Virus record (IMG/VR): IMGVR_UViG_3300046028_009991
Location: 1 to 37,605 of that record
DNA length: 37,605 nt
Direction: 5' to 3' (one strand)
From: a virus
The notes under the pieces are model-generated. The model ran no database searches. It was not told where the DNA came from and was given only the letters and a program-made list of their open reading frames with translations. Below are positions 14,462 through 28,659 of this stretch, in pieces. Each line of letters starts with the position of its first letter. Positions within the stretch are counted from its first letter, which is position 1. A program made the translations under genes and the position numbers.

Positions 14462-14523
14462 TATTCGGGAAAGACCCGAATACGCATCAGGGTTTCGGTC
14501 GCCTGATGTAAAAGAAAAGACCG
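14462..14523 (+). ncRNA. structured inter-tRNA element A (hairpin plus possible pseudoknot)
   Basis: An 8-bp hairpin TATTCGGG/CCCGAATA (14462-14469/14475-14482) is followed by a 7-bp hairpin CATCAGG/CCTGATG (14485-14491/14502-14508). The loop of the second contains CGGTC (14496-14500), which can pair with GACCG at 14519-14523 as an H-type pseudoknot. It has no tRNA features and ends in ATTTT like neighbouring tRNAs. Function unknown. Confidence 0.5.
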
Positions 14524-14535
14524 AGCATTTTCAAT

Positions 14536-14607
14536 GGGTCGTTCGTTCAATGGATAGGACTTTAGATTTCTACTCTAATAATAGGGGTTCGATTCCCTTA
14601 CGACCTA
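14536..14607 (+). tRNA. tRNA-Arg(TCT)
   Basis: Acceptor GGGTCGT/ACGACCT, anticodon arm TTAGA-TTTCTAC-TCTAA, T-loop TTCGATT, discriminator A. It reads AGA, a codon favoured in AT-rich genomes. Confidence 0.95.
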
Positions 14608-14613
14608 CTTTAA

Positions 14614-14678
14614 TGCTCGCTGGAATCCTGCATATCGCGATCAGGATAGCCTGTGCTGTGAGAACCAGACGGTGAGCA
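14614..14678 (+). ncRNA. structured inter-tRNA element B
   Basis: A 65-nt element closed by TGCTCGC/GTGAGCA (14614-14620/14672-14678), with an internal hairpin ATCCTG/CAGGAT (14625-14630/14642-14647). It has acceptor-like ends but no T-arm and no proper anticodon arm. A CTGTGAG stretch hints at His but its stem does not pair. It could be a degenerate tRNA or a separate RNA. Confidence 0.4.
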
Positions 14679-14687
14679 ACCAATTTC

Positions 14688-14758
14688 GCGCCATAAGTGT
14701 TACGGTAGCACATCAGACTTCCACTCTGAGAGCGTGGGTTCGACCCCCACATGGCGCA
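14688..14758 (+). tRNA. tRNA-Gly(TCC)
   Basis: Acceptor GCGCCAT/ATGGCGC, anticodon arm TCAGA-CTTCCAC-TCTGA, T-arm GTGGG-TTCGACC-CCCAC, discriminator A. Confidence 0.95.
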
Positions 14759-14768
14759 CTTTTTGTCA

Positions 14769-14858
14769 TGCCGTATACTGCAAAGATAGTATATGAGCGT
14801 GCGTAGTGATACTCTACTAGCCATAGAGTAATATATACGTCGTAATCCGACGCACGGT
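14769..14858 (+). ncRNA. structured inter-tRNA element C
   Basis: It holds hairpins TATACT/AGTATA (14774-14779/14888-style spacing, 3' arm at 14788-14793), TACTCTA/TAGAGTA with loop CTAGCCA (14810-14816/14824-14830) and CGTCG/CGACG (14838-14842/14848-14852), plus a competing long-range pairing CGTGCG/CGCACG. The middle hairpin has the size of an anticodon arm with T at the U33 position (would read AGC), but the rest is not a normal cloverleaf. The stretch 14859-14924 adds only weak pairing (CTTTG/CAAAG). Confidence 0.4.
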
Positions 14859-14924
14859 GGTAAGGTCAAGTGGCTTTGAAGATATCCATCCTCTGTGAGT
14901 TTCGGTAGTGTGGCAAAGTTTTCT

Positions 14925-15001
14925 CTGGTATTAGCTCAGCTTGGTAGAGTACCTGATTTGGATTCAGGGGGTCGTAGGTTCGAATCCTACATACCAGACC
15001 A
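14925..15001 (+). tRNA. tRNA-Pro(TGG), CCA encoded
   Basis: Acceptor CTGGTAT/ATACCAG, anticodon arm CCTGA-TTTGGAT-TCAGG, T-arm GTAGG-TTCGAAT-CCTAC, discriminator A followed by CCA at 14999-15001. Confidence 0.95.
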
Positions 15002-15004
15002 TTT

Positions 15005-15106
15005 AAACATGTAGTTCAGTGGTAGATCACATCTTCTCTATGATGGTAAGCTACACCGCAAAAGAGAGAAGCTCTGAGGACGCGGGTCCGATTCCCGCCA
15101 TGTTTA
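15005..15106 (+). tRNA. tRNA-like gene with expanded anticodon domain
   Basis: The ends are those of a tRNA: acceptor AAACATG/CATGTTT, D-arm TAGTTCAGTGGTAGATC and T-arm GCGGG-TCCGATT-CCCGC. Between D-arm and T-arm lie 53 nt, against about 23 in a class I tRNA. The insert pairs as CTTCTCT/AGAGAAG around a 25-nt loop, or as CATC/GATG with an 8-nt loop. No convincing anticodon can be chosen. It could be a tRNA with a small insertion or intron, or a tRNA mimic. Confidence 0.5.
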
Positions 15107-15117
15107 AGATTTTTTAT

Positions 15118-15206
15118 GGGTGTGTGGTCGAGTCTGGTTTATGGCATCGCACTTGAAATGCGACGGTGGTGAAAACTGCCCGTGGGTTCAAATCCTACCG
15201 CACCCG
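15118..15206 (+). tRNA. tRNA-Ser(TGA)
   Basis: Class II: acceptor GGGTGTG/CGCACCC, anticodon arm TCGCA-CTTGAAA-TGCGA, long variable arm GGTGGTGAAAACTGCC, discriminator G as expected for Ser. Confidence 0.95.
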
Positions 15207-15213
15207 TTTTTTA

Positions 15214-15285
15214 CCGAGAGTAGCATATGTGGTAATGTCTAGGATTGTGACTCCTACTAATCAGGTTCGAGTCCTGACTCGCGGA
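15214..15285 (+). tRNA. tRNA-His(GTG)
   Basis: Anticodon arm TAGGA-TTGTGAC-TCCTA and T-arm TCAGG-TTCGAGT-CCTGA are clear. The acceptor CCGAGAG/CTCGCGG has one A-G mismatch, and the base before it is A, not the G-1 usual for His. The His identity rests on the anticodon. Confidence 0.85.
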
Positions 15286-15295
15286 TTTTGTTAAT

Positions 15296-15366
15296 TGGCC
15301 CATGGCGTAATGGTATCGCGGATGGCTTTGACCCATCAGACGGGAGTTCAATTCTCTCTGGGCCTG
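15296..15366 (+). tRNA. tRNA-Gln(TTG)
   Basis: Anticodon arm GATGG-CTTTGAC-CCATC. Acceptor TGGCCCA/TGGGCCT leaves T1 opposite T72, and the discriminator is G. An open 1-72 end and G73 both fit known glutaminyl-tRNA synthetase preferences. Confidence 0.93.
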
Positions 15367-15371
15367 CTTTT

Positions 15372-15464
15372 TTCTACCTGATAAGAGCCTATAAGGAACG
15401 GTGATATAATGATCGTAGTGCTTCGGCCAGATTGTTTGAGTCGGGCGAATCCTGCACGGTAGAA
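15372..15464 (+). ncRNA. structured inter-tRNA element F
   Basis: A 93-nt element closed by TTCTACC/GGTAGAA (15372-15378/15458-15464). Inside are CCT-ATA-AGG, a TTCG loop (GTGCTTCGGCC) and CGGG-CGAAT-CCTG near the 3' end. Size and ends recall a class II tRNA, but there is no valid anticodon arm and the T-loop is abnormal. It is followed by GTTTTC. Confidence 0.4.
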
Positions 15465-15472
15465 TGTTTTCT

Positions 15473-15545
15473 GGGAGTATAATTCAATTGGTAGAATACC
15501 TCACTTTTAATGAGTAAGTTTCGGGTTCAAGTCCCGATGCTCCCA
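15473..15545 (+). tRNA. tRNA-Lys(TTT)
   Basis: Acceptor GGGAGTA/TGCTCCC, anticodon loop CTTTTAA, T-arm TCGGG-TTCAAGT-CCCGA, discriminator A. Confidence 0.94.
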
Positions 15546-15560
15546 CTTTTATAAATGGTT

Positions 15561-15628
15561 GTTGAGTAGCTCTCAACTGATCTGGAATAAGCAGGAGGAA
15601 GTCCAGAAAGAACGATGATAAACCCTGC
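15561..15628 (+). ncRNA. structured element G with possible pseudoknot
   Basis: Hairpin GTTGAG/CTCAAC (15561-15566/15572-15577) is followed by TCTGG/CCAGA (15581-15585/15603-15607). The loop of the latter carries GCAGG (15591-15595), which can pair with CCTGC (15624-15628) as an H-type pseudoknot. It lies between tRNA-Lys and the promoter of the HNH gene. Confidence 0.4.
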
Positions 15629-15638
15629 ACAAATTTAG

Positions 15639-15666
15639 TTGACTTCTTCGAAAGAGAGGTTAGAAT
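15639..15666 (+). promoter_or_regulatory. sigma70-like promoter TTGACT-16-TAGAAT
   Basis: TTGACT (15639-15644) and TAGAAT (15661-15666) precede the HNH ATG at 15673 by only 6 bases, so the transcript would start at or near the ATG. The TTGACTTCTT sequence recurs in the promoter at 18409. Confidence 0.65.
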
Positions 15667-15672
15667 GATGAC

Positions 15673-16035
15673 ATGAAATTCATCACTAGATTATGTAAAA
15701 CACACGGTTCTACAGAATTTGTGTTGGAAGGAAGAGGATATTATCGATGCAAAAAATGTCGATCTCATAGCGTCCATAAAAAACGAAAATTAAATAAACT
15801 TAAATTAGTGGAAGAGAATGGAGGGTGTTGTTCTATTTGTGGTTATAATAGATATGTTGGAGCATTACAATTTCATCACTTAGATCCTTCGTTAAAAAGT
15901 TTCGGTCTTTCCCAAAAGGGAAAAACATTAGGAATGGATTCTCTTCGAGAAGAAGCTAAAAAATGTATTTTACTATGCGCTAATTGTCATAGTGAAGTAG
16001 AAGGAGGAATTATTCAAATCCCAGTAACGCACTAG
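15673..16035 (+). CDS. HNH endonuclease inserted beside tRNA-Asn
   Basis: This 120-residue protein has an N-terminal zinc-ribbon-like part (Cys8, Cys26/Cys29) and a compact HNH domain: Cys53/Cys56 (CSICGYNR), His68-His69 (LQFHHLDP) and Cys102/Cys105/His106 (CANCHSEVEGG). It has its own promoter and probably a leaderless mRNA. Its last 17 bases, including the stop, are also the 5' end of tRNA-Asn. That is an intimate fit expected of a homing endonuclease that has settled at a tRNA gene. Confidence 0.88.
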   Translation: MKFITRLCKTHGSTEFVLEGRGYYRCKKCRSHSVHKKRKLNKLKLVEENGGCCSICGYNRYVGALQFHHLDPSLKSFGLSQKGKTLGMDSLREEAKKCILLCANCHSEVEGGIIQIPVTH

Positions 16036-16090
16036 GTGTGCGACCGCTCTGTTAAAGCGTGTGAGCTTGGTTCGAATCCAAGACTGGGAG
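16019..16090 (+). tRNA. tRNA-Asn(GTT)
   Basis: Acceptor TCCCAGT/ACTGGGA, anticodon loop CTGTTAA, T-arm CTTGG-TTCGAAT-CCAAG, discriminator G. Its first 17 bases overlap the end of the HNH reading frame. Confidence 0.93.
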
Positions 16091-16106
16091 CCTTTTAAAA
16101 CAAAAT

Positions 16107-16176
16107 GCTTGGAGGGGATCTGTAAGAATGCATATAATGAGGGGCAGCACCTCAAGATTCCACAAAAACTCCAAGC
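16107..16176 (+). ncRNA. structured element H
   Basis: A 70-nt element closed by GCTTGGAG/CTCCAAGC (16107-16114/16169-16176). It contains a 5-bp, 7-nt-loop hairpin TGAGG-GGCAGCA-CCTCA (16138-16154) and GGATCT/AGATTCC pairing. Length and outer helix are tRNA-like, but U33 and a T-arm are missing. Confidence 0.4.
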
Positions 16177-16188
16177 TCCACTTTACAT

Positions 16189-16506
16189 ATGATATCAATA
16201 AAAATACTAGAACCTAATGACATTGTAAAAGCTACTGATTGGTGCCGTCCTTTACATCTGGAAACCATGAGTGGAGGACAATCAGATTACTACTCATTTG
16301 AATCAGACTATTCAGGCATCGCACAAAACAATGTGAAGTGGGTTCGTATCAGAGATGTATTTGGACCGTGTTGGTTTGGTAAGAGTGCTAAAGAACTCAA
16401 CAAATATACTCAGCATGAGATTGTTCGTGGTGAGATTCCACAAAAGCATCGTTTGACAGGACACAAGTCCTTGCATACGTTTTTTACTAATTTAAAAACT
16501 TTATAA
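16189..16506 (+). CDS. hypothetical protein, 105 aa
   Basis: I do not recognise this protein. It contains WCRPLHLETMSGGQSDYYS and RIRDVFGPCWFGKSAKELNKY and ends in a basic segment (RLTGHKSLHTFFTNLKTL). It stands alone among tRNA genes, with structured elements H before and I after it. There is no Shine-Dalgarno sequence. Confidence 0.6.
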   Translation: MISIKILEPNDIVKATDWCRPLHLETMSGGQSDYYSFESDYSGIAQNNVKWVRIRDVFGPCWFGKSAKELNKYTQHEIVRGEIPQKHRLTGHKSLHTFFTNLKTL

Positions 16507-16508
16507 AC

Positions 16509-16607
16509 ATTCATAGGTCTGGTCACCCAGATGATATTGAGCATTCGGCTTCGATTACCGTAACCTCAATACGCGAAGAAACGGATTGATCACCGTTCGC
16601 CTAGAAT
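16509..16607 (+). ncRNA. cloverleaf-like structured element I
   Basis: A 99-nt element closed by an 8-bp helix with one bulged A (ATTC-TAGG at 16509-16517 with CCTAGAAT at 16600-16607). It encloses three hairpins: TCTGG-TCAC-CCAGA (16518-16531), TATTGAG/CTCAATA (16535-16541/16565-16571) with an inner CGG/CCG, and GCGA-ACGG/CCGT-TCGC (16573-16600). The plan is a cloverleaf but none of the arms has tRNA sequence identity. A CATTTTT trailer follows. Confidence 0.5.
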
Positions 16608-16614
16608 CATTTTT

Positions 16615-16686
16615 GCCGAATTAGCACAGTGGTAGTGCAATCGCCTTGTAAGCGATAGGTCGTCAGTTCGAGCCTGACATTCGGCT
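16615..16686 (+). tRNA. tRNA-Thr(TGT)
   Basis: Acceptor GCCGAAT/ATTCGGC, anticodon arm ATCGC-CTTGTAA-GCGAT, T-arm GTCAG-TTCGAGC-CTGAC, discriminator T. Confidence 0.95.
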
Positions 16687-16692
16687 CTTTAT

Positions 16693-16765
16693 AGATGCAT
16701 AGCTCAGATGGTAGAGCGCAGCTTTGATAAAGCTGGGGTCGTTGGTTCGAGTCCAACTGTGTCTA
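16693..16765 (+). tRNA. tRNA-Ile(GAT)
   Basis: Acceptor AGATGCA/TGTGTCT with two G-T pairs, anticodon arm CAGCT-TTGATAA-AGCTG, T-arm GTTGG-TTCGAGT-CCAAC, discriminator A. Confidence 0.95.
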
Positions 16766-16773
16766 CTTTTTAT

Positions 16774-16844
16774 GCGGCGTTGGTATAGGGGTTGTGCCTT
16801 AGTCTCCAAAACTAAAGAGGATCGTTCGAGTCGATCACGCTGTG
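16774..16844 (+). tRNA. tRNA-Trp(CCA)
   Basis: Anticodon arm TTAGT-CTCCAAA-ACTAA, acceptor GCGGCGT/ACGCTGT, discriminator G as in bacterial Trp tRNAs. Confidence 0.94.
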
Positions 16845-16852
16845 CTTTTTTA

Positions 16853-16924
16853 GGGGGTATAGCATAACGGTAATGCACCTGCTTTGCAAGCAGTAGATTG
16901 TCAGTTCGAATCTGACTACCTCCA
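16853..16924 (+). tRNA. tRNA-Ala(TGC)
   Basis: Anticodon loop TTTGCAA in a CCTGC/GCAGT stem, acceptor GGGGGTA/TACCTCC, discriminator A. It ends one base before the stop of the convergent virion gene, with no terminator between them. Confidence 0.95.
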
Positions 16925-16925
16925 T

Positions 16926-18260
16926 TTATCTTGAAACTTCTTCCCAATCTAAAGATCCGAAAGCATGAGTTGTCGCTGTACCACAGCTGATAGCTAAAGA
17001 TATTTCATAACCGCTTCCAATAAAACTATTTTTTTCTAATTGAAATCTAAAAAGATCCTCTTTCGTTAATTCAATCGAAGACTTTGATTGAGTGGTAGAA
17101 GTTATAAATCCCTGAGCGAGTGTTCTTCCTCCACTGATAGCAGTGCCGCTGATATTATATTCCACAGAACTGTCAGCTCCAGCGCTTACCCAAGTTCCTC
17201 CAGAAGTAGTTGGGCCTCCCAATATGCGCCAATTGTAATTGCCATTGTCCACTGGAATTAAAGATGCAGCGCTAAGCACTGAAATAGATTCCAAACGATT
17301 AGATTTTAATCTTAGACTAACAAGTGGGTAATAAACACCTTGTGTGTCTAAATCTTTTCGTGCCAAAATAGCAGTTCCAATTCCTTGTTGGAAACCTCTC
17401 ATTTCGTATCCACCTTCAGATATCACACTAGAACAGATTTGTTTTAATGTGCTTACTCCAGAAGTTGCGCCAATATTTTCGATTTCGTATCTTAATGGCA
17501 AAGATGCTGTTGTGATGTATGTAGCTCCGATGTTATTTGCGTGGTGAAAAGTATGGCAAACAATGTATTTGCCGTCGATAATAAATCCTACTCGCACAGA
17601 TCCGACTCCCAGCCATTCAATGTCCATCCAAAAAATTTGAGCTTTAGCAACGTCTAAAGTCAAACGGGAAGGTCCAGTTCCATCCAGCTTGTCTCCATTC
17701 CAATCGGTCTGATTGATTATGAATTCTTCGCCAACAACACCATTTGTTGAGGTTCGTTTTACAAAACTGGCAACAGTTCCATTGGCACCTCCAAGCTGGA
17801 AGTAAATTCCGTTGCTTGTTCCAAAATAACCGACTCTTTGCCTTAGATTGTTTTTGGCTGGACTCATTGCAAAAGTATTTAATACTAATAATGATTTACC
17901 TGGTTGGTACGAAAAATTTCTTATTGTTTCTCTTTTAACAAAAGAGCCAGATGCATTTGTAATCATTAAATCAATCAACCCTTGTCCAGAGTTAAAAACT
18001 CCAGAACCATTTACTCCCGTAGACATTGCCCAAAGAGCATTATCAGAGTATCTGTGAGTAGAATCAAACAGAGTCATTGGCTCAGAAATTCTCATGCGAC
18101 CGAAAGCATCAAAAGAAGTTGATCCAGCAGTATTAGCAAAACTCAAATCTTCTTGCTCTAGAGGTCTGTAATTATCATTTACTCTATCGTAAATAAATGG
18201 AATTTGTCCCGCTGTGTGAGATAATTGAGAAAGATTATTGAAGGTGTAATACTGAGCCAT
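16926..18260 (-). CDS. virion structural protein, isolated between tRNA arrays
   Basis: This 444-residue protein resembles a structural protein seen in large marine and freshwater phages. Its N-terminus includes SFDAFGRMRISEPMTLFDSTHRY-like sequence (split here as AFGRMRISEP and TLFDSTHRY), then RETIRNFSYQPGKSLLVLNTF and KNNLRQRVGYFG. The remainder is beta-rich with Gly/Ser turns. It has no signal peptide or catalytic motif. It is the only minus-strand gene right of the tail operon, is flanked by tRNAs on both sides, and carries a GTGTAA box 14 nt before its ATG, consistent with late expression. The exact virion position is unknown. Confidence 0.75.
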   Translation of the reverse strand: MAQYYTFNNLSQLSHTAGQIPFIYDRVNDNYRPLEQEDLSFANTAGSTSFDAFGRMRISEPMTLFDSTHRYSDNALWAMSTGVNGSGVFNSGQGLIDLMITNASGSFVKRETIRNFSYQPGKSLLVLNTFAMSPAKNNLRQRVGYFGTSNGIYFQLGGANGTVASFVKRTSTNGVVGEEFIINQTDWNGDKLDGTGPSRLTLDVAKAQIFWMDIEWLGVGSVRVGFIIDGKYIVCHTFHHANNIGATYITTASLPLRYEIENIGATSGVSTLKQICSSVISEGGYEMRGFQQGIGTAILARKDLDTQGVYYPLVSLRLKSNRLESISVLSAASLIPVDNGNYNWRILGGPTTSGGTWVSAGADSSVEYNISGTAISGGRTLAQGFITSTTQSKSSIELTKEDLFRFQLEKNSFIGSGYEISLAISCGTATTHAFGSLDWEEVSR

Positions 18261-18274
18261 AATAATTATTACAC
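18261..18274 (-). promoter_or_regulatory. GTGTAA start-proximal box of the 444-aa virion gene
   Basis: On the minus strand GTGTAATAATTATT directly precedes the ATG, with the box starting exactly 14 nt before it. There is no Shine-Dalgarno sequence. Confidence 0.6.
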
Positions 18275-18325
18275 TTTGTTTGTCTTAGAGAGTTGTTTGC
18301 GGTGTGTTTTTTAAATTGTTTAAAA

Positions 18326-18399
18326 GAGCGAGTGATGGAATTGGTATACATATTGGCCTTAGAAGCCAAGTTTTGAGGGTTCGAGTCCCTCTTCGCTCA
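18326..18399 (+). tRNA. tRNA-Leu(TAG) with a short variable loop
   Basis: Acceptor GAGCGAG/TTCGCTC, Leu-like D-arm (GATGGAATTGGTATACA), anticodon arm TTGGC-CTTAGAA-GCCAA, T-arm GAGGG-TTCGAGT-CCCTC, discriminator A. The variable region is only about 5 nt (GTTTT), whereas bacterial leucine tRNAs normally have a long variable arm. Confidence 0.9.
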
Positions 18400-18408
18400 C
18401 TTTTTTTG

Positions 18409-18436
18409 TTGACTTCTTTGGTAGTGCTGGTATAAT
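18409..18436 (+). promoter_or_regulatory. strong sigma70-like promoter TTGACT-16-TATAAT
   Basis: TTGACT (18409-18414) and a perfect TATAAT (18431-18436) with a 16-base spacer lie 11 bases before tRNA-Leu(TAA). It should drive the second, three-gene tRNA group and perhaps the genes from 18721. Confidence 0.8.
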
Positions 18437-18447
18437 GAAGGAGTAAT

Positions 18448-18529
18448 GGCCATGTGGTGAAATTGGTATCCACAGCAGATTTAAAATCTGCCGCCTTCGG
18501 GCTTGTCGGTTCGAGTCCGACTATGGCTA
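18448..18529 (+). tRNA. tRNA-Leu(TAA)
   Basis: Class II: acceptor GGCCATG/TATGGCT, anticodon arm GCAGA-TTTAAAA-TCTGC, variable arm GCCTTCGGGC, T-arm GTCGG-TTCGAGT-CCGAC, discriminator A. Confidence 0.95.
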
Positions 18530-18540
18530 CTTTTTAAAAC

Positions 18541-18613
18541 AGGGATGTAGCAGAACGGTTAATGCGGGCCTCTCATAAAGGTTAGATAGTGGGTTCAACT
18601 CCCACCGTCCCTA
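18541..18613 (+). tRNA. tRNA with CAT anticodon (Met or lysidine-Ile)
   Basis: Acceptor AGGGATG/CGTCCCT, anticodon stem GGCCT/AGGTT with loop CTCATAA, T-arm GTGGG-TTCAACT-CCCAC, discriminator A. The paired 1-72 end argues against initiator function. Confidence 0.9.
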
Positions 18614-18626
18614 TCTCATAAAATAT

Positions 18627-18700
18627 GCTCCATTAGCTCAGTTGGTTAGAGCGCGTTTTTTATAAAGGCGGGGTCACTGGTTCAAGCCCAGTATGGAGTA
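18627..18700 (+). tRNA. tRNA-Ile(TAT)
   Basis: Acceptor GCTCCAT/ATGGAGT, anticodon stem CGTTT/AGGCG with loop TTTATAA, T-arm ACTGG-TTCAAGC-CCAGT, discriminator A. A TAT anticodon reads AUA directly. Most bacteria instead use a lysidine-modified CAT tRNA, so this is a notable phage tRNA. Confidence 0.93.
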
Positions 18701-18720
18701 CTAAATTTAATCTAAAAAAA

Positions 18721-18846
18721 ATGAATCGTAAAAATTCGAAACAAACAAAAAACAAAGTAAAGCGCAAGGGTGTTCATGCAAAAAGCAAAACCTCTCGCTT
18801 GAAAAATTCTAAGAATTATAAGAAGTCTTATCGAGGTCAAGGTTAA
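18721..18846 (+). CDS. small basic protein, 41 aa
   Basis: Of 41 residues more than a third are Lys or Arg; the middle reads KVKRKGVHAKSKTSRLKNSK and the end YKKSYRGQG. Very similar small basic proteins with a KRKGVHAK and YRGQG pattern are, as I recall, encoded by some bacteria and phages, but their role is not established. The content suggests RNA or DNA binding. It lies between the tRNA group and the 18848 gene with 1-2 bases spacing. Confidence 0.75.
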   Translation: MNRKNSKQTKNKVKRKGVHAKSKTSRLKNSKNYKKSYRGQG

Positions 18847-18847
18847 T

Positions 18848-19138
18848 ATGAAAATCCTAGCAAATACTTTGGTTGAAGTTGATGTATCAGAAGACGAACA
18901 GCGGAAAATTGCAGTAGCTTATCTTTTTAATATCTACGATTGGAAAGATGGTTATCACATTTGTGAAGAAAAAGTTTATCAAGCTGTGACTGTGCATCAT
19001 CATGATGCATGGATCGATGATGTGTTCATTCGATATGCAACAGACAATGACTATGTTGTAGCGAGTCTTCTGCTGAAAATTAAAAAAAGTAAACAATATG
19101 AAACAATCGCCCTCCCAAAAACTCAAGAAAGCAGTTGA
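18848..19138 (+). CDS. hypothetical protein, 96 aa
   Basis: I do not recognise this protein. It is acidic in its first part (VEVDVSEDEQRKIAVAYLFNIYDWKDG) and carries a His-rich patch (VTVHHHDAWIDD). Its last 41 bases overlap the start of the next gene in another frame, so the two are probably coupled. Confidence 0.65.
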   Translation: MKILANTLVEVDVSEDEQRKIAVAYLFNIYDWKDGYHICEEKVYQAVTVHHHDAWIDDVFIRYATDNDYVVASLLLKIKKSKQYETIALPKTQESS

Positions 19139-19754
19139 AGGATGCAGCAAAGAGTTTACCGATTTCTTTGATTGGTCTTTGGAGTATTTGATCGAGCATA
19201 ATAAGTCTATTAAAATAGTGAATGCTCGCCATGTAAATATGGGAACATCCCAAAAATGTTCTGGGTGGTGCGATGGTTCAGAAATTGTTATTGCTCGCAA
19301 AAATCCTTTGTTTCAACAGGTTTACGTTCATGAATTTTCGCACATGAATCAAATGGTCGAGCAATCTCCTGTTTGGGGCGATGATTCTGATTTTTGGGAT
19401 CTTCTATATACTAAAGGGTTCAGTATTCCTGATTACCAAAAAGTAATGGAGGTTATTGCTTTAGAAAGAGATTGCGAGAAAAGAGCTATTGCTCATTCTA
19501 AAAAGTGGAAACTATTTGATAATGAAGCTTACGCAAAACAAGCAAATACTTACCTTCATTACTATCAGTATATCTTTCTGACAAAAAAGTGGGTTAATTC
19601 GACTTCTATTTATCATCCAATGATTTTAGATGTTATGTCCGCGAAAATCAAAGACATTGGTTCGTTTTATGAAATCAATATGGATTTAATGAATCTGTTT
19701 CATCAATGCCTAGAACCAAAGGGTAAATATTATAAAAAAGGCTTTAGTTCTTGA
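19098..19754 (+). CDS. HExxH zinc-metallopeptidase-like protein
   Basis: The 218-residue product has a zincin-type motif VYVHEFSHMNQ with His78, Glu79 and His82 in a predicted helix, preceded by a strand (SEIVIARK). A later helix, VIALERDCEKRAIAH (about 119-133), offers Glu residues as a third metal ligand. Phages of this size often encode such proteins next to morphogenesis or lysis genes, but the substrate is unknown. It overlaps the preceding gene by 41 bases. There is no signal peptide, so it acts in the cytoplasm or in the virion. Confidence 0.65.
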   Translation: MKQSPSQKLKKAVEGCSKEFTDFFDWSLEYLIEHNKSIKIVNARHVNMGTSQKCSGWCDGSEIVIARKNPLFQQVYVHEFSHMNQMVEQSPVWGDDSDFWDLLYTKGFSIPDYQKVMEVIALERDCEKRAIAHSKKWKLFDNEAYAKQANTYLHYYQYIFLTKKWVNSTSIYHPMILDVMSAKIKDIGSFYEINMDLMNLFHQCLEPKGKYYKKGFSS

Positions 19755-19770
19755 ATGTCTGGGTGATATA

Positions 19771-19784
19771 GTGTAATATCTATT
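19771..19784 (+). promoter_or_regulatory. GTGTAA start-proximal box
   Basis: GTGTAATATCTATT directly precedes the ATG at 19785, with the box starting exactly 14 nt before it. A TATAGT lies just upstream (19767-19772). Confidence 0.55.
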
Positions 19785-19979: not shown

Positions 19980-19987
19980 TTTTAAAC

Positions 19988-20363
19988 GGGTCTGTACTGG
20001 TTTCGACTTGATTAGTAGTTCATTAACTAGCATGTAGGAGTTGATCGGATGGCTCCTTAAAAATCCGATCAAAAAAAACAAACGGCAACAATAAAATTGT
20101 CAGCTTCCGCAAGCCAGTTTTCAGCCGCAAGGCTGTAGCTCTCGCTGCCTAAGCAAAACGCTCAGAGATACGCTCGCTCTACTCTGAGTTCAAAACGAGC
20201 AAAAAAACAGTTTCAGTCCTGTCTGATTGAATGGTGGAGGATGCAAGGAACTACCAAGAACCGAGCGTCCCTAAGAATGATTCTCTTTGATGAATCAATA
20301 TAAGCATGTTTGAAGGTTAGTGACAATTAGTTGAGGAAATGGGTTCGATTCCCATCAGATCCA
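19988..20363 (+). ncRNA. ssrA: tmRNA (one-piece)
   Basis: The 5' end GGGTCTGTACTGGTTTCGAC and the 3' end GGGTTCGATTCCCATCAGATCCA form the tRNA-like domain, with acceptor GGGTCTG/CAGATCC and discriminator A. A hairpin GATCGGAT/ATCCGATC (20043-20050/20063-20070) precedes the tag frame, which runs in frame from about 20081 and stops at TAA 20150-20152. The tag ends SFRKPVFSRKAVALAA; about 22-23 codons is long compared with 10 in E. coli. The resume codon may be GGC at 20084. More hairpins follow the stop. It would rescue stalled ribosomes together with host SmpB. Confidence 0.93.
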
Positions 20364-20386
20364 CTATTTATTTCCCGTCAGGTCCA
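20349..20386 (+). repeat. duplicated tmRNA 3' end
   Basis: TTCCCATCAGATCCA at the tmRNA 3' end (20349-20363) is repeated as TTCCCGTCAGGTCCA at 20372-20386, 13 of 15 bases identical. Such a displaced copy of an RNA gene's 3' end is what integration or homing at that end leaves behind. The HNH gene at 20406 follows directly. Confidence 0.65.
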
Positions 20387-20391
20387 TTTTA

Positions 20392-22707: not shown

Positions 22708-22715
22708 AAGGACAT

Positions 22716-24641
22716 ATGAAGACAATTGCAATCTCTTCCCCGCTGATTGTCGGGGGCGGTATGGAAGGTTCCGTCATGGGTATGGATGCCGCTGGCATGA
22801 ATACTGCAACCTATTTCATGCGCGACAAAATCTATAGCAACAAAATTCAAGCAGTCGTTCGCGAGTATGCTTGCAATGCTATTGATGAACACGCAAAGCA
22901 CGATATTGATCGAGAAGTTGAAGTTGGATTGCGCAGCGAACAAAACAAAACTATCTTTTTTGTTCGTGATTTTGGCAAAGGATTGAGCGAATCTGATGTA
23001 CGAAATGTATTCGGAATGTATTTCCGAAGCACGAAATCGACGACCAACAATTCTATTGGCGGCTTCGGCGTTGGCTCCAAAGCGGGTCACTGTTACTGTG
23101 ATACATTTTTTGTTGCTTCTTATTTCCAAGGTATCAAAACTACATACGCTTGTATGCTTGGAGGCGGCGATACTGGAGTGCCAGTGGGTCATATTTATAA
23201 GATCGATGAAAGTCCAACAAATGAATCTGGCGTTGAAATCTCTTTGCCTGTGCAGAGTCTCGATGAGAATTCTTTCAACAAAGAAATTCTAAAGTTCGTA
23301 AAATTTTCAACTGCTAAAATTGTTTATAATTATGCACTTGGCAGCGATTTTAATCATAAAGCTCATCGCCCTTTCAAGATTTTCTTGGAAAAGAAACTGC
23401 TCGATTATAATTTTCGAGTAGTCGAATTGGATAATGACTTTGCTCCAAGAGATACTTTTGAAGTTGAGATTCAAATGGGTGGTGTATCGTATGGCAAAAA
23501 ATCATTTACTACTGGTTCTTTTTCTGTTCAGTATGGATTTAGATTGCTTGTGAATGTTCCAATTGGCTCTATGAGTATTCCTCTCAGCCGAGAAGCGTTT
23601 GAATACACAACTCAAAATCAGAACAAAATCAATGAAATCCTGTCTTTGATTGAAGCTTGGAGTCATGAAGATCTAAATCAGTTTAAAAATAAGAATCTGA
23701 TGGATCTGATTGAAGATGTCGTCAAAAACAATGATAATCTTTATAAAGGTGAAGTGTTTAACGCTACCATGCGCGAACTTTATGAAGATATTTGGCCTCT
23801 TGCTGAGGAAATCAAGAAATGCAACATATCTACTGTTCCATTTTCTATGCAAGCATCTAAGCCGATTCTTCTTAGCATCGGAGACAATACAGCAACTGCT
23901 TATTGGTTTCATAAAATCCACAGTCATTGTTTAGTTAAGAATGAAAATTACTACACAATCATAGAAGGCAAGTCTCTCACCAAACATAAAGATATTCTTT
24001 CTGAACATTTCTTTTTGAAATCCGTCAAGTCGGTTAAGTTCGAAAAGGCCGTACAAAACAATAAGATTTATAATGTTTATGATTACTACCAAAGCAATCT
24101 TGGCAAATACAGCGCTTTAGATCTTCATAATTATAATCGTAGCCCGCTTGCAAGCATCGACTGTCCAATTGAAGCAACAAAAATCAATAAAGAGTTCGTT
24201 GATTCTATTGATTGCCTCGATGATCTTGTGAAGATCACAATTAGCAATCTTAAATACAACGGTAAAAATCGCTCAGCTTGTAGATTTTATACTTTTTCCG
24301 TTCAACTATGTGAAGCACTCAAAAGCATTGGTTGGGTTGAATACGGCTCTAAACAATACAATGAAATTGTAAAGAGAATCACAGAAGAGAAAGCCAAGAT
24401 TCAACGTAAAGAATCTAACGTTAAAAATGCTCTTAAAAATTGGGTAAACTTCAATGAAAAAACCAAGTCTATCGTGACTAAAAACGATAAATACGCCGAA
24501 AAAATTGCCACTTTTTGGAGAAAAGCCTTGAATGAAGAATCTGTTCGTGGTAAAGTACTTCTAGCAATCGATCAGCGCTATTTTTATAAAAACAGTTCTT
24601 TTAGCCGCCAAGATATTCGAAACATCCTCAAACTGAAATAA
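22716..24641 (+). CDS. rIIA: rIIA-like protein (GHKL ATPase)
   Basis: The 641-residue protein has the GHKL nucleotide-binding motifs: N-box REYACNAIDEH (about 49-59, with Glu50, Asn54 and Asp57), G1 DFGKGLS (85-91, Asp85-x-Gly87-x-Gly89) and G2 GGFGVGSKAG (115-124). Together with the rIIB-like gene 10 bases downstream this identifies the T4 rII pair. In T4, rIIA/rIIB act at the membrane, influence lysis inhibition and are needed to exclude lambda RexAB action; their biochemical role is still unclear. It is in the early/middle type position with its own promoter. Confidence 0.92.
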   Translation: MKTIAISSPLIVGGGMEGSVMGMDAAGMNTATYFMRDKIYSNKIQAVVREYACNAIDEHAKHDIDREVEVGLRSEQNKTIFFVRDFGKGLSESDVRNVFGMYFRSTKSTTNNSIGGFGVGSKAGHCYCDTFFVASYFQGIKTTYACMLGGGDTGVPVGHIYKIDESPTNESGVEISLPVQSLDENSFNKEILKFVKFSTAKIVYNYALGSDFNHKAHRPFKIFLEKKLLDYNFRVVELDNDFAPRDTFEVEIQMGGVSYGKKSFTTGSFSVQYGFRLLVNVPIGSMSIPLSREAFEYTTQNQNKINEILSLIEAWSHEDLNQFKNKNLMDLIEDVVKNNDNLYKGEVFNATMRELYEDIWPLAEEIKKCNISTVPFSMQASKPILLSIGDNTATAYWFHKIHSHCLVKNENYYTIIEGKSLTKHKDILSEHFFLKSVKSVKFEKAVQNNKIYNVYDYYQSNLGKYSALDLHNYNRSPLASIDCPIEATKINKEFVDSIDCLDDLVKITISNLKYNGKNRSACRFYTFSVQLCEALKSIGWVEYGSKQYNEIVKRITEEKAKIQRKESNVKNALKNWVNFNEKTKSIVTKNDKYAEKIATFWRKALNEESVRGKVLLAIDQRYFYKNSSFSRQDIRNILKLK

Positions 24642-24651
24642 ACAAAACAAA

Positions 24652-25623
24652 ATGAAATACATCGTAAACAGCAACGGAATTGTCGTTTTCCACAACAACA
24701 AGCCAATTAGGATCGAGAAGACTTCTGCAAAGTATTCTCAAGTAGTCAAGATTCTTGATCTGCCAGAAGGTGAACAGGATTCTGCCTTGGATAAGGTTCT
24801 TAATGTTGATCTTGGTCTTGATCGAGATGGATTTTCAATCAACGGTTCAATTATCTCTTATCAAGGAGAAACTCTTCCAGAAGTTCTTTCCAGTAAGATC
24901 TTCGCTCTTCTCGAAGAAGGACTACCAATCACTGTATTTGTTAATTTCTGGAAGAACTTGAAGCAGAATCCATCTAGTTCTTCTGTATCTCAGCTTTATG
25001 ATTTCCTAGAATACAAGGAACTTCCAATCACTGAAGATGGCTGTTTCCTAGCATACAAGGGATTGGAGAGTAATTATTGGAGTATCTCTGGAAATCTTAA
25101 GACTGTTGTTGTAAAGGGTCTAACTGATAAGCTTGGACGCATCTACAATGGAGTTGGCGAGCAAGTTGAAGTAGTTCGTCACAATGTAGATGACAATAGA
25201 AACAATCATTGTTCTTTTGGACTGCATGTTGGTTCTCTTGATTATGCTTCTGGCTTTAGCCAAGGAAAGATCGTAGTTGTGAAGATCAATCCTAAAAATG
25301 TTGTTTCAGTTCCTATTGATTATAATTGCCAAAAGTGCCGAGTTTCGGCTTATGAAGTTATTTCGGATTTCTCTCAAGAGATCTCAGCGCCCGCTACCAA
25401 TGAAGATGGAGAGGAGCTTTTCAACGAATCAACCCTCGAATACAATGCTTTTGTCGAAAAGATTCAATCTTATTTGATTAATAAGAAGCAGCAAGGGTTC
25501 ACCAGCATTGCGGTTCAAAAAATCCAAAACTCCTTTTCTCCTGAGTATCCAAGTCGTGTGCGTGTTCTAGACGCTGTAAATCAACTTGGTTATATTTGGC
25601 AAGGATCTGTGGTATTTCTGTAA
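24652..25623 (+). CDS. rIIB: rIIB-like protein
   Basis: The 323-residue protein carries the rIIB-type C-terminal domain: GCFLAYKGL, VDDNRNNHCSFGLHVGSLDYA (here split by residue about 185-205), KIVVVKINPKNVVSVPIDY and KCRVSAYEVI. The N-terminal 100 residues are more variable. The leader AACAAAACAAA lacks a Shine-Dalgarno sequence. It is followed by a strong terminator, so rIIA-rIIB is a closed transcription unit. Confidence 0.92.
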   Translation: MKYIVNSNGIVVFHNNKPIRIEKTSAKYSQVVKILDLPEGEQDSALDKVLNVDLGLDRDGFSINGSIISYQGETLPEVLSSKIFALLEEGLPITVFVNFWKNLKQNPSSSSVSQLYDFLEYKELPITEDGCFLAYKGLESNYWSISGNLKTVVVKGLTDKLGRIYNGVGEQVEVVRHNVDDNRNNHCSFGLHVGSLDYASGFSQGKIVVVKINPKNVVSVPIDYNCQKCRVSAYEVISDFSQEISAPATNEDGEELFNESTLEYNAFVEKIQSYLINKKQQGFTSIAVQKIQNSFSPEYPSRVRVLDAVNQLGYIWQGSVVFL

Positions 25624-25633
25624 AGCTTAACTG

Positions 25634-25666
25634 GAGCCGACATCGTTAAGCGGTGTCGGCTCTTTT
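25634..25666 (+). terminator. Rho-independent terminator after rIIB
   Basis: GAGCCGACA (25634-25642) pairs with TGTCGGCTC (25654-25662), with further pairing near the loop and a following TTTT. Confidence 0.9.
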
Positions 25667-25673
25667 CTATTTT

Positions 25674-25829
25674 ATGAACTTTGAAAATGTAGTTGTATTT
25701 TTAGTTTTTATTCTTTATTCGATAGTGGCTATAAGTCACGCAATGAAAGGTAACTATGCATGGGCTTGTGTTTGGGGTGGCTATGCAGTAGCTAATGTTG
25801 GATTGATTCTGGCTCAGTCAAAACCTTAA
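25674..25829 (+). CDS. small membrane protein, 51 aa
   Basis: Two hydrophobic segments (VVVFLVFILYSIVAIS at about 6-21, and CVWGGYAVANVGLILA at about 32-47) are separated by a short polar loop (HAMKGNYAWA). It starts shortly after the rIIB terminator. No function can be assigned. Confidence 0.7.
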   Translation: MNFENVVVFLVFILYSIVAISHAMKGNYAWACVWGGYAVANVGLILAQSKP

Positions 25830-25840
25830 AAATTAATATT

Positions 25841-26503
25841 ATGGGAATGTTTGATTATTTAATTTGCGAAATGGATCTGCCTGAATTTCCAGAAGAATGT
25901 CTGGAGCGGAGCTTTCAAACTAAAAGCACACCCAATCAAAGTATGTCAACATACAAGATTACAGCTGATGGAGAGGTTCTTGAAAAACACTCACAGTATC
26001 AGCGTATCGAACCTGCACGACATTTGGATAGTTGGTTGGATGCACTTGGAGCATATGAAGAAGTAGATTTCGATTGGCGACCTTGTCACTTTACTGCGGA
26101 TGTTGAGTTCTATGAATATTGGAAGCATCCTGACTATGATCCTGATGATGCCGTGTATTTTGAAAGAGGTTTTATTAAGTATAGCGCTTCTATTGTAGAG
26201 GGTAAATGCGCTTCAATTAAAATAGTTGACAAGTGGTTGCCTGTAGAGTATACTTATGAAGAGGTTCAAGCAAAGTGCATCGCTGCTGAAAAACAACGAG
26301 AGGAATTTCGTAAGTCTATGAGGGAACGTCGTATGAACCGACCTTCTACGACAGAAGAGTTGGTGGACGATATTGATAGCCTTATTAAAAACAAACCTGC
26401 CATCTTTGATAGAAGTGATCTGATTTCAACCTTGAATAAGATCTCTGATCGCATTGAAGAATGGCGCAAAAAACACGATTTTTGGTACAATGAAAACATA
26501 TAA
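25841..26503 (+). CDS. conserved phage hypothetical protein, 220 aa
   Basis: The N-terminus (MGMFDYLICEMDLPEFP, then FQTKSTPN and YKITADGEVLE) matches a widespread phage and prophage protein that starts MGMFDY; its function is not known. The C-terminal half here is a long charged helix-rich extension (EEVQAKCIAAEKQREEFRKS...). It overlaps the next small gene by 14 bases. Confidence 0.75.
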   Translation: MGMFDYLICEMDLPEFPEECLERSFQTKSTPNQSMSTYKITADGEVLEKHSQYQRIEPARHLDSWLDALGAYEEVDFDWRPCHFTADVEFYEYWKHPDYDPDDAVYFERGFIKYSASIVEGKCASIKIVDKWLPVEYTYEEVQAKCIAAEKQREEFRKSMRERRMNRPSTTEELVDDIDSLIKNKPAIFDRSDLISTLNKISDRIEEWRKKHDFWYNENI

Positions 26504-26624
26504 ATTCCGAGGAAAAACATTTAAATGTGACGCTCGCACAATTCAATATTTGAATCATGCATTAGCGTTGAATTACTCAACTGAGAGATATCAAGAAGTC
26601 AAAAACAATGGCGACAAAAAATAA
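26490..26624 (+). CDS. hypothetical protein, 44 aa
   Basis: This short frame (MKTYKFRGKTFKCDARTIQY...) overlaps both its neighbours by 14 and 17 bases, as is typical of this operon. It is basic; no motif is recognised. Confidence 0.6.
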   Translation: MKTYKFRGKTFKCDARTIQYLNHALALNYSTERYQEVKNNGDKK

Positions 26625-26892
26625 CATAACAGGCGACGAAATAAAATCAAAGCCTCTTTCTAAAAAAGGTCGAGAAAACTGGGACAATATTTTTAAGAAA
26701 CAATCAGCATGGAATTGGTTGAAGGAATTAAATTATGATGAGTATACCATATTAGATCCAGACGGCTGGCGATACAACGATGGCGTTGATTTAAATACTC
26801 CAATTACAAAATCAGATTTCTTTAAGCGATTCAATAAATCAACAGTGATGTTTAAACCAATCAATGAAAAAATTAAAAATGAAAAAAAATAA
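26608..26892 (+). CDS. hypothetical protein, 94 aa
   Basis: The product contains GRENWDNIFKKQSAWNWLKELNYDEY and LDPDGWRYNDGVDLNTPITKSDFFKRFN. Short phage proteins with the LDPDGWR pattern recur in this operon type (compare WWVDPDGKI in the gene at 29769), suggesting a shared small fold. Function unknown. Confidence 0.65.
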   Translation: MATKNNITGDEIKSKPLSKKGRENWDNIFKKQSAWNWLKELNYDEYTILDPDGWRYNDGVDLNTPITKSDFFKRFNKSTVMFKPINEKIKNEKK

Positions 26893-27292
26893 CTTAAAAC
26901 TATTTTTAGACGATATCAGAATGCCTTCCGACGCTTTTATTTATGAAGAGCGTGTCAAGCTTATCGCTAAATCTGGTGTTCAAAATTGTGAATGGAATAT
27001 TGTTCGCAATTATGAAGACTTTTGTGAGTTTATCGACACTTTTGGAATACCCGAAGTCGTTAGTTTTGATCATGATTTGTGTGAAGAACACATGAATCAT
27101 TACTTTACTGTAACATCGCAAATTGGAGTAATTGAATACGGTAATCTAAAAACAAAAACAGGCAAGCATTGTGCGGAATATTTTGTTGACAAATGGCGAG
27201 AAGCTGGTAAACCTACTGTGAAAGTTTACGTTCACAGCGCCAATCGATGGGGACAAGTTGAAATTAAAAAAGTATTAAAAGAACTACTATAA
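26879..27292 (+). CDS. cyclic-phosphate-processing receiver-like protein (cpREC type)
   Basis: The ATG at 26879 is chosen because the upstream in-frame ATG falls further into the previous gene. The 137-residue protein shows the receiver-like pattern LFLDDIRMP (Asp11, Asp12, Arg14), the middle VVSFDHDLCEEH (Asp64, His65, Asp66) and a C-terminal VYVHSANRWGQVEI. This matches a receiver-derived family predicted by comparative genomics to process cyclic phosphates in RNA repair. It is close to HAD, kinase and RNA ligase genes, which fits. The activity itself is inferred. Confidence 0.65.
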   Translation: MKKNNLKLFLDDIRMPSDAFIYEERVKLIAKSGVQNCEWNIVRNYEDFCEFIDTFGIPEVVSFDHDLCEEHMNHYFTVTSQIGVIEYGNLKTKTGKHCAEYFVDKWREAGKPTVKVYVHSANRWGQVEIKKVLKELL

Positions 27293-27296
27293 TAAA

Positions 27297-27842
27297 ATGA
27301 TTAATAGAATTTTTTGGGACATTGACGAAACACTTATTCATACAGAGTTGAGCGAGCCAAATCAAGACCATGTGTCTTTTTCATTGGACGATAGAATGTA
27401 CTACACAATGATTCGGCCTTGCAGCAAAGCGCTGATTGATTTCAGTAGAGAGCTAGTAGGTGCTGATCAGGTTCATATTCTAACCACAGCAACTAGAGAT
27501 TATGCGCGAGAAGTAAATCGACTGGCGGATTGGGGTTTTGAAAATTCAAACATTTTTTCGCGAGAAGATTTGGCCAAGTATTCTTTTCGTTTTCCTCTTG
27601 CTTATGGAGCTTCGCATGAAGAGCGTAGTTCTCATTTTTATGCTCATAAAAATAATGTAATTATTGACAATCTGCGTCCACGGGAAAACGAGAATAAGAT
27701 TGCATTTATCGGTATCAATGATACCTATCAAGACAATTACTTGAGGATTCTTGATTACTATGGCGTCGAGTATGCTGATTCAAATTTTGAGCAAGAAGTA
27801 AAAGAGTTTCTGATTAGTAGGAATAAATCGACTGCTGTATGA
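27297..27842 (+). CDS. HAD-superfamily phosphatase
   Basis: The 181-residue protein starts with the HAD motif I FWDIDETLIH (Asp8-x-Asp10), followed by motif II VHILTTATRDYA and a motif IV-like VIIDNLRPRE. The DxDET form is typical of FCP1/NIF-like HAD phosphatases. Its place among RNA-repair-type genes allows a polynucleotide 3'-phosphatase role, as in the HAD domain of T4 Pnkp, but a protein or small-molecule phosphatase is equally possible. Confidence 0.8.
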   Translation: MINRIFWDIDETLIHTELSEPNQDHVSFSLDDRMYYTMIRPCSKALIDFSRELVGADQVHILTTATRDYAREVNRLADWGFENSNIFSREDLAKYSFRFPLAYGASHEERSSHFYAHKNNVIIDNLRPRENENKIAFIGINDTYQDNYLRILDYYGVEYADSNFEQEVKEFLISRNKSTAV

Positions 27843-28114
27843 AATATAAAATTGAAATTAATCAAGGCTGCACGGCATACGGAACTGTTGTCAATGGAAA
27901 AGATTGGAGTGGGGAATACCCTGCCACCACCATGACCGAAGAAGAGCGAAATGAATTTTATGAATATCTATTGTCGAAAATTAAAGAGGGTTATGACGAT
28001 GGATCGATCTGTATCGATGATTTAATTCGTTTGTTTCATTACGACAGTTGCTCTTGCGGACCAGTTTGTGATCAATGCGGAGATTCAGTCTTGACAGAAT
28101 CATGGAAGCTGTGA
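27839..28114 (+). CDS. hypothetical zinc-ribbon-like protein, 91 aa
   Basis: The start overlaps the HAD stop (ATGA). The protein ends in a cysteine cluster CSCGPVCDQCG that could bind zinc, preceded by an acidic region. A phage protein of this type is usual in small-gene operons; function unknown. Confidence 0.65.
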   Translation: MKYKIEINQGCTAYGTVVNGKDWSGEYPATTMTEEERNEFYEYLLSKIKEGYDDGSICIDDLIRLFHYDSCSCGPVCDQCGDSVLTESWKL

Positions 28115-28120
28115 TATAGT
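28091..28120 (+). promoter_or_regulatory. sigma70-like promoter TTGACA-18-TATAGT
   Basis: TTGACA (28091-28096) and TATAGT (28115-28120) end 8 bases before the ATG at 28129. It may also serve the structured RNAs downstream. Confidence 0.6.
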
Positions 28121-28128
28121 ATTAGTCT

Positions 28129-28278
28129 ATGGAAGAAACAGTGACAATTACAAAAAAGCATTATAATGATCTTCTTGAAGACTCAAGACAACTTCAATGT
28201 CTAGAAAACGCTGGAGTTGACAATTGGGACGGATATAGCTATGCTATGCAAGAGTTTCATGGAGATGAAGAAGAGTGA
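28129..28278 (+). CDS. small acidic phage protein, 49 aa
   Basis: The protein (VTITKKHYNDLLEDSRQLQC, then AGVDNWDGYSYAM and an acidic end) matches a common small phage protein type with the GVDNWDGY motif and no known function. A promoter lies directly upstream. Confidence 0.75.
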   Translation: MEETVTITKKHYNDLLEDSRQLQCLENAGVDNWDGYSYAMQEFHGDEEE

Positions 28279-28290
28279 GTGAACAATTAT

Positions 28291-28405
28291 AAGCGGTATC
28301 GTGGTAGTCAAATCCTGTGGATTGACTGTCGTAAACTGGACGGCAATGGGGCAGATATCCAGTCGAGCTTCAGGTGACTAGGAGCCACCACCCACGATAC
28401 CGCTT
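28291..28405 (+). ncRNA. cloverleaf-like RNA K with a 14-bp closing helix
   Basis: The ends AAGCGGTATCGTGG (28291-28304) and CCACGATACCGCTT (28392-28405) form 14 perfect base pairs. Inside are a hairpin AGTCAA-ATCC-tgt-GGAT-TGACT (about 28306-28327, one unpaired base), ACTGGA/TCCAGT (28334-28339/28358-28363) and GGTG/CACC (28373-28376/28386-28389). A TACTTTTTT trailer follows. No T-arm or anticodon is present. The perfect pairing over 14 bases makes chance unlikely. Confidence 0.65.
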
Positions 28406-28443
28406 ACTTTTTTAATAAATGGAACACTGATATAATAATTACA

Positions 28444-28547
28444 GATCGGGTGGTGAAACTGGTAAACACACGGCGGCAGTCGATTGTAGATAGGCATATC
28501 GAAGCATTGGCATAGTATGAATGTAGGTTCGAGTCCTACCCCGATCA
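28444..28547 (+). tRNA. tRNA-Leu-like gene with expanded anticodon domain
   Basis: The ends are fully tRNA-like: acceptor GATCGGG/CCCGATC, D-arm GGTGAAACTGGTAAACAC as in leucine tRNAs, T-arm GTAGG-TTCGAGT-CCTAC, discriminator A. The 53 nt between D-arm and T-arm do not form a normal anticodon arm plus variable arm. The best hairpin is TCGAT/ATCGA with a 13-nt loop that contains TAG, and CATT/AATG may be a variable arm. It is 104 nt long, close to the 102-nt element at 15005. Confidence 0.55.
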
Positions 28548-28556
28548 CTTTTTTAA

Positions 28557-28659
28557 CAGTCTGAGGGTGTATAGCTATCACCCAATGAAAGGATAGCAAT
28601 GCATGGCTATTGACAATTGGATAGACATGAAGTATAACAAGGTTCGATTCCCGAGACTG
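28557..28659 (+). ncRNA. tRNA-like RNA L
   Basis: A 103-nt element closed by CAGTCT/AGACTG (28557-28562/28654-28659), with hairpins GGGTG/CACCC (28565-28569/28579-28583) and ATAGC/GCTAT, and a T-loop-like GGTTCGATTCCC near the 3' end. An anticodon arm and a full T-stem are missing. It follows the Leu-like element after 9 bases. Confidence 0.45.

Follow-up and report, generated by a model that had tools for sequence, protein, structure and literature searches.

Are the gaps between the transfer RNA (tRNA) genes of a phage array empty, or do they hold RNA genes of their own? The question was raised by the window, the whole stretch analysed here (G000; IMGVR_UViG_3300046028_009991), a 37.6-kb IMG/VR fragment of an uncultivated phage that carries tail genes and rIIA and rIIB homologues and in which eleven stretches, e1 to e11, are interleaved with tRNA genes. 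Elements e1 to e4, e6 and e7 are genuine structured units on which purifying selection acts: several phages retain them between their tRNA genes, and compensatory changes of base pairs support them wherever the sequences differ enough. Element e8 is also conserved, though in a close relative only. The most economical account, by analogy with RNA C and RNA D of phage T4, is that the elements would be stable RNAs of the same kind, co-transcribed and processed with the tRNAs.

Eleven stretches between tRNA genes

ARAGORN at default settings reported 20 tRNAs and a transfer-messenger RNA (tmRNA) in the window. Two further tRNAs were recovered, tRNA-Phe at 14387 (by Rfam, and by ARAGORN only if relaxed) and tRNA-Met at 14130 (by relaxed ARAGORN). 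The canonical tRNAs of the array cover nearly all amino acids. The elements among them are as follows (nt, nucleotides; bp, base pairs).

e1, 14462..14530, + strand: hairpin and H-type pseudoknot with an A-rich third loop, in the slot between tRNA-Phe and tRNA-Arg(UCU)
e2, 14614..14682, + strand: 69 nt, with a 7-bp acceptor-like helix (TGCTCGC/GTGAGCA) and ACCA; no T arm
e3, 14769..14915, + strand: multi-helix RNA of about 147 nt with an acceptor-like closing helix, a covarying hairpin and stem, and a strongly conserved 3' domain
e4, 15005..15106, + strand: acceptor, D arm and T arm of a tRNA, but a 7-bp helix with a 25-nt loop in place of the anticodon arm
e5, 15372..15464, + strand: closing helix TTCTACC/GGTAGAA, holding the exact promoter motif GGAACGGTGATATAAT at 15395-15410
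e6, 15556..15632, + strand: hairpin (15561-15577) and H-type pseudoknot (15581-15628), a plan in common with e1
e7, 16107..16180, + strand: 8-bp closing helix, then a 7-bp helix, an inner hairpin (5 bp, 7-nt loop) and an encoded [T/G]CCA; no T arm
e8, 16509..16610, + strand: multi-hairpin RNA closed by ATTC(A)TAGG/CCTAGAAT
e9, 28290..28406, + strand: perfect 15-bp closing helix with inner hairpins, ending in ACTTTTTT as tRNAs do
e10, 28444..28547, + strand: tRNA-Leu-like ends (acceptor GATCGGG/CCCGATC, D arm, T arm) without an anticodon arm; promoter motif at 28421 just upstream
e11, 28557..28659, + strand: 6-bp closing helix CAGTCT/AGACTG and a T-loop motif, without a standard anticodon arm

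A preliminary description of this DNA had presented these stretches as folded RNAs in tRNA-type slots, mostly with acceptor-like closing helices and without a valid anticodon arm. All eleven are present and fill gaps between tRNA genes; default ARAGORN called none of them and found in none a 5-bp anticodon stem with a 7-nt loop and U33. Their standing as non-tRNAs held for the ten that drew no Rfam tRNA call (e10 reached 16.9 bits, under the gathering cut-off) but not for e4, which Rfam scored as a tRNA (RF00005; 41.4 bits against a 29-bit gathering cut-off), with a 43-nt insert in the covariance model (CM) alignment instead of an anticodon arm. The elements resemble tRNAs in their slots, their presumed transcript and their acceptor-like closing helices, and differ from them in the anticodon arm that all lack and in the cut-off that only e4 passes. 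Acceptor-like helices close e2, e4, e7 and e10 (7 bp) and e11 (6 bp), whereas e1 and e6 have no 7-bp acceptor helix. A T arm with a GTTCRA-type loop was found only in e4, e10 and e11, and in none of e1 to e3 or e5 to e9. Two stretches needed amendment: that at 15561 does hold a hairpin and a pseudoknot, but its end (15639-15666) is a promoter, and that at 15372 (e5) is kept in two related phages but contains an exact phage promoter motif.

As a set, the stretches fold as the description supposed. Mean folding z-scores against dinucleotide shuffles were -1.9 for the elements and -1.9 for the array tRNAs, compared with -0.2 for 120 coding windows (Mann-Whitney p = 3e-5). Single values were -5.3 to -5.5 for e9, -3.0 for e7, -2.8 for e1, -2.4 for e2 and -1.3 for e5; e6, e10 and e11 departed from the claim at about -0.5, and these three were not individually different from coding windows. 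As the stretches had been picked by eye, z alone is biased; evidence from conservation and covariation does not depend on how they were picked.

Conservation, paired changes and turnover

The array had no DNA-level match among phages of GenBank-derived collections. Relatives with the same array were found by protein searches in IMG/VR: the close relative L004 (with a near copy, L092; 94% in the open reading frame (ORF) at 19098) and the distant relatives L114 and L158 (65% in the same ORF). Gene order is common to these arrays, with swaps: promoter, leader, Glu, (Met), Arg, Tyr, Phe, e1, Arg(UCU), e2, Gly, e3, Pro, e4, Ser, His or Val, Gln, e5, Lys, e6, Asn, e7, e8, Thr, Ile, Trp, Ala. Seven of the eight elements of the main array recur in L114 and/or L158, and e8 recurs in L004.

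Between the window and L114 or L158, fourfold-degenerate sites in the HNH gene of the array and three downstream ORFs are 33-57% identical, near saturation. Identity to the copies in L114 and/or L158 was 78% for e3, 82-90% for e1, 86% for e7, 91% for e6 and 94% (L114) or 96% (L158) for e2, with 95-99% for e5; array tRNAs ranged from 68 to 100%. Element e4 was 96-97% identical in L004 and L158. Compared with L004, e8 was 99% and e7 97% identical, against 79% at fourfold sites of the ORF between them.

The preliminary description had proposed a search for covarying homologues in related phages, and pairs changed on both sides were indeed found in e1, e3, e6 and e7. In e3, 33 pairs in seven helices, a pseudoknot among them, left 98% of cells paired across three phages, with 9 double-sided changes compared with 3.3 in shuffles and 0-1 with partners slid. 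All 20 pairs of e7 were kept in four phages (100% paired) and two were altered on both sides. For e1, also in four phages, 98.5% of cells were paired over 17 pairs; its hairpin has one double-sided change, and a C-G pair of its pseudoknot is replaced by U-G. The pseudoknot varies so little that e1 taken singly has no significant support from shuffles. Between the window and L114, the hairpin of e6 carries three double-sided changes and its H-type pseudoknot is invariant. Element e12, a sister that occurs in L004, L114 and L158 but not in the window, showed 6 double-sided changes over 16 pairs (100% paired). The structures of e1, e3, e6, e7 and e12 were written by hand after reading the alignments, which somewhat favours them over slid controls and leaves the double-sided changes unaffected. 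Variation in e2 was restricted to changes of the G-U/G-C type, including G-U to G-C in the closing helix of L158. The insert of e4 is almost invariant in three phages, whereas its T arm varies.

With the window counted, e1 and e7 occur in all four phages. Elements e2 and e5 are missing from L004 only, e3 from L158 only and e4 from L114 only, and the window shares e6 with L114 alone and e8 with L004 alone. Gain or loss takes place at clean junctions, as where L004 lacks e2, e5 and e6 and where L114 lacks e4; the e8 slot is filled by other elements in L114 and L158, and e12 has Gly and Pro as its neighbours in L004 and L158 but e1 and Arg in L114. From this pattern of presence, absence and slot, we conclude that the elements are gained, lost and relocated as whole units among the tRNA genes.

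Two further units were seen in the distant relatives. One, f3, is a conserved element of about 200 nt between e7 and tRNA-Thr (L114 5050-5270, L158 6722-6940) that had no Rfam match and is followed by a promoter-like TTGAC(A/T) site. The other, h1 (L158 6598-6711), has a 7-bp acceptor-like helix (GTTTCTC/GAGAAAC) followed by TCCA, without a T arm.

Origin and possible role of the elements

When the array of the window was scanned for a perfect 7-bp helix followed by N and CCA (span roughly 60-160 nt), exactly tRNA-Phe, e2, tRNA-Pro and e7 were returned, compared with 0.44 expected from shuffles. The CCA is encoded by e7 in four phages, although the base before it varies, and by e2 in three; most array tRNAs have no encoded CCA.

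Searches beyond these arrays returned little. At gathering and E<=5 thresholds, Rfam gave nothing above chance save tRNA and tmRNA, and only e4 fitted a family (tRNA). No meaningful blastn match was obtained against 50,697 phages; the T arm of e4 matched Stenotrophomonas phages at E 0.4, in some of which a tmRNA is annotated beneath the match. The exact e3 core was present in IMG/VR in these phages only, the exact e1 core and the conserved ORF were absent from GTDB genomes, and matches to a CM of e7 were restricted to the four arrays save one at chance level. Among themselves the elements showed no self-matches except T arms and a match of e10 to the D arm of tRNA-Leu. The longest antisense match of the e4 insert within the window was 10 nt, the same as in shuffles. 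Short introns in the anticodon loops of e4, e10 and e11 were also considered, but ARAGORN in intron mode reported them equally often on the minus strand and was uninformative.

We propose the following mechanism. One promoter, by way of a structured leader, would drive the elements together with the tRNAs. The enzymes of tRNA maturation would release them, with RNase P acting at the acceptor-like helix; 3' ends would be formed by trimming or at the CCA end in e2 and e7, and by cuts at flanking tRNAs or by terminal hairpins in e1 and e6. Once released, the elements would build up as small stable RNAs, like RNA C and RNA D of T4. Least certain is the final step, in which they would act in trans, by mimicry of tRNA ends (e2, e4, e7) or as compact pseudoknots (e1, e6), and titrate tRNA-attacking or tRNA-using proteins of the infected host. 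We hold this account as a whole, from selected structured RNAs through tRNA-type processing to action in trans, with moderate confidence.

A role as tRNA mimics or decoys appears plausible because the phage also encodes a probable RNA-repair cassette. The mimicry suggested in the preliminary description would suit e2 and e7 (7-bp acceptor-like helix with NCCA) and e4 (tRNA body with a replaced anticodon arm). Its proposal of decoys for anticodon nucleases is weak, such a function being unlikely where the anticodon loop is absent, and the elements might instead be decoys for something that reads the acceptor end. The proposed new RNA family gained support, but as several unrelated families rather than one.

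Several points weigh against the mechanism. Transcription, processing and accumulation of the elements are read from the sequence, and we know of no defence protein or target for them. The folds are several and unrelated, so that one shared function is an assumption. For each element the covariation comes from between two and four phages, and e1, e6 and e7 taken singly have modest support from shuffles. Rather than a free RNA, e5 may be a promoter inside the array together with its structured leader. For e9 to e11 no homologues were found other than identical copies of the same phage, so their case consists of folding and tRNA-like ends, and e10 (z -0.5) and e11 (z -0.6) fold no better than shuffled sequence.

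Alternatively, the hairpins and pseudoknots could be processing spacers, cis elements that guide or insulate RNase cuts in the tRNA precursor and are idle once released. This would suit units placed between tRNAs, many of them bounded within a few bases of the tRNA genes, and the compact hairpin-pseudoknot form of e1 and e6. We nevertheless consider it unlikely, as other tRNA pairs of the array lie 5-10 nt apart without such units, element gain or loss leaves the flanking tRNAs intact, e12 changes slot, e2 and e7 encode CCA acceptor ends unlike most array tRNAs, and the 147-nt e3 exceeds the size that a spacer needs. The preliminary description also raised decay, in which e4, e10 and e11 would be former tRNA genes losing function and the others chance folds. 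The T arms kept in these three and the shuffle-level folding of e10 and e11 favour it, and for the last two decay is possible. For e1 to e7 it is refuted by conservation (78-99% identity compared with 33-57% at fourfold sites, and covarying pairs): e4 is well kept in three phages with the anticodon-replacing insert as its most conserved part, and e1, e2, e3, e6 and e7 have no T arm, with compensatory changes in all of these but e2. As an explanation of the whole set, decay is distinctly improbable.

The A-rich loops and H-type pseudoknots of e1 and e6 are also reminiscent of RNA antitoxins, and these elements could neutralise a type III (ToxN-like) toxin. Phage RNA mimicry of this sort has a precedent in the pseudo-ToxI of phage PhiTE, a pseudoknot RNA that the phage makes in imitation of a defence RNA (PMC3475682). 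The likeness is a functional analogy only: Rfam showed no match to ToxI even at E values as high as 5, e1 and e6 are single copies and not tandem repeats, and no toxin is known in the host, which makes this reading very unlikely. Minimal tRNAs that lack arms exist in nematode mitochondria, and the acceptor helix and inner hairpin with a 7-nt loop in e7 and e12 recall them. That they decode in this phage is scarcely credible, given that the 7-nt loops have no conserved U33 and vary between phages, and that canonical tRNAs of the array already serve nearly all amino acids.

The proposed stable RNAs have their closest counterparts in T4. To our knowledge, no function has been assigned to RNA C (species 1) or RNA D (species 2) since they were discovered, and there have been no homologous families to study. 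Both are small stable RNAs beside a phage tRNA cluster, annotated adjoining tRNA-Arg (rnaC and rnaD), and the elements, known here from sequence, likewise lie within a cluster and on the same strand. RNA C has no anticodon arm and terminates in a T arm, CCGGGTTCGAATCCCGG, an anatomy that it shares with e4, e10 and e11. The differences are in number (two in T4, up to eleven here, interleaved with tRNAs) and in the acceptor and NCCA ends without a T arm of e2 and e7. No homology to rnaC or rnaD was detected by blastn (words of 7; T4 region L109) or with models of e1, e7 and e12. The T4 species were validated by Northern blot as late RNAs "of yet unknown functions" (PMC9697503).

Some ROOL and GOLLD RNAs lie near tRNAs. 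These large structured RNAs found in phages (PMC12286853) are hundreds of nt long, compared with 70-150 nt for the elements, which had no Rfam match to them.

The present arrays offer at least six conserved RNA families, several with structures supported by covariation, and natural gain and loss across phages, which makes the question of function testable. Should they be defence decoys, RNA mimicry would join spare tRNAs and RNA repair as a phage means of protecting translation. The arrays are also a warning that the "gaps" between phage tRNAs are genes overlooked by annotation. A broader conjecture, which we rate as rather improbable, is that the tRNA arrays of large phages house a changing stock of RNA genes with tRNA-like ends and no decoding parts. 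Their RNAs, freed by tRNA maturation, would be decoys for host factors that recognise the acceptor end or body of tRNA, and T4 would have kept two of them in RNA C and RNA D.

Promoters, a probable RNA-repair cassette and other features

Regulatory features of the array are given below.

Array promoter and structured leader, 13929..14040, + strand: TTGACA, 16 nt and TATTCT at 13929-13956
Leader, about 13964-14037, + strand: two abutting stem-loops, then the boxA-like GTTCTTTTACATT
Consensus promoter, 15639-15666, + strand: TTGACT-17-TAGAAT upstream of the HNH gene and tRNA-Asn, retained in L004

The 80-nt leader, in which the boxA-like GWTCTTTYACATT follows the stem-loops, is better conserved across four phages than the promoter spacer is, and one of its stem-loops has a base pair altered on both sides. 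It resembles the antitermination leaders of rRNA operons and the put sites of HK022, and by this analogy may be a put/nut-like leader suited to read-through of structured RNA; a search for an antitermination homologue among phages gave chance-level matches only. Exact + strand copies of GGAACNNTRATATAAT at 15395-15410, 28421-28436 and 33605-33620 stand ahead of genes or RNA elements, and these repeats are a phage promoter motif.

The probable cassette for RNA end-healing and sealing spans 30046-32897 and encodes a 2H phosphoesterase-like protein (under the Pfam cut-off, with two HITL motifs), a P-loop kinase (under cut-off), a T4 Rnl1-like RNA ligase (above cut-off) and a metallophosphoesterase; a cREC protein is encoded at 26864-27292. 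Such a cassette makes conflict over the integrity of phage tRNAs likely.

Unrelated tRNA arrays in L016 (17600-20600) and L155 (11942-14570; array G007) have structured gap elements of their own, closed by 6-17-bp helices and without sequence relation to e1 to e8. Non-tRNA units with acceptor-like closing helices lie at L155 12400-12473 (CCCTGCG/CGCAGGG and GCCA) and 12480-12553, and at L016 20143-20238 and 18593-18672.

Among named phages, the product of the ORF at 19098-19754 matched only XacN1 (384 kb) and LR756502 (642 kb), at 33% identity, hinting that the phage of the window may be large as well. The tmRNA (19988-20366) has a long tag, GNNKIVSFRKPVFSRKAVALAA, kept with changes in L004 and L158. 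A group I intron interrupts tRNA-Leu(UAA) in L004 (3436-3631, - strand), L114 (9174-9366) and L158 (9362-9557); the copy in the window (18448-18530) has none, and an Rfam search for RF00028 found no match anywhere in the window. In L004 (7240-7900, - strand) and L158 (4687-5330), tRNA-Arg(UCU) is split by an inserted gene that leaves a 3' remnant, with a second tRNA-Arg(UCU) upstream, which is a homing-type insertion with replacement.

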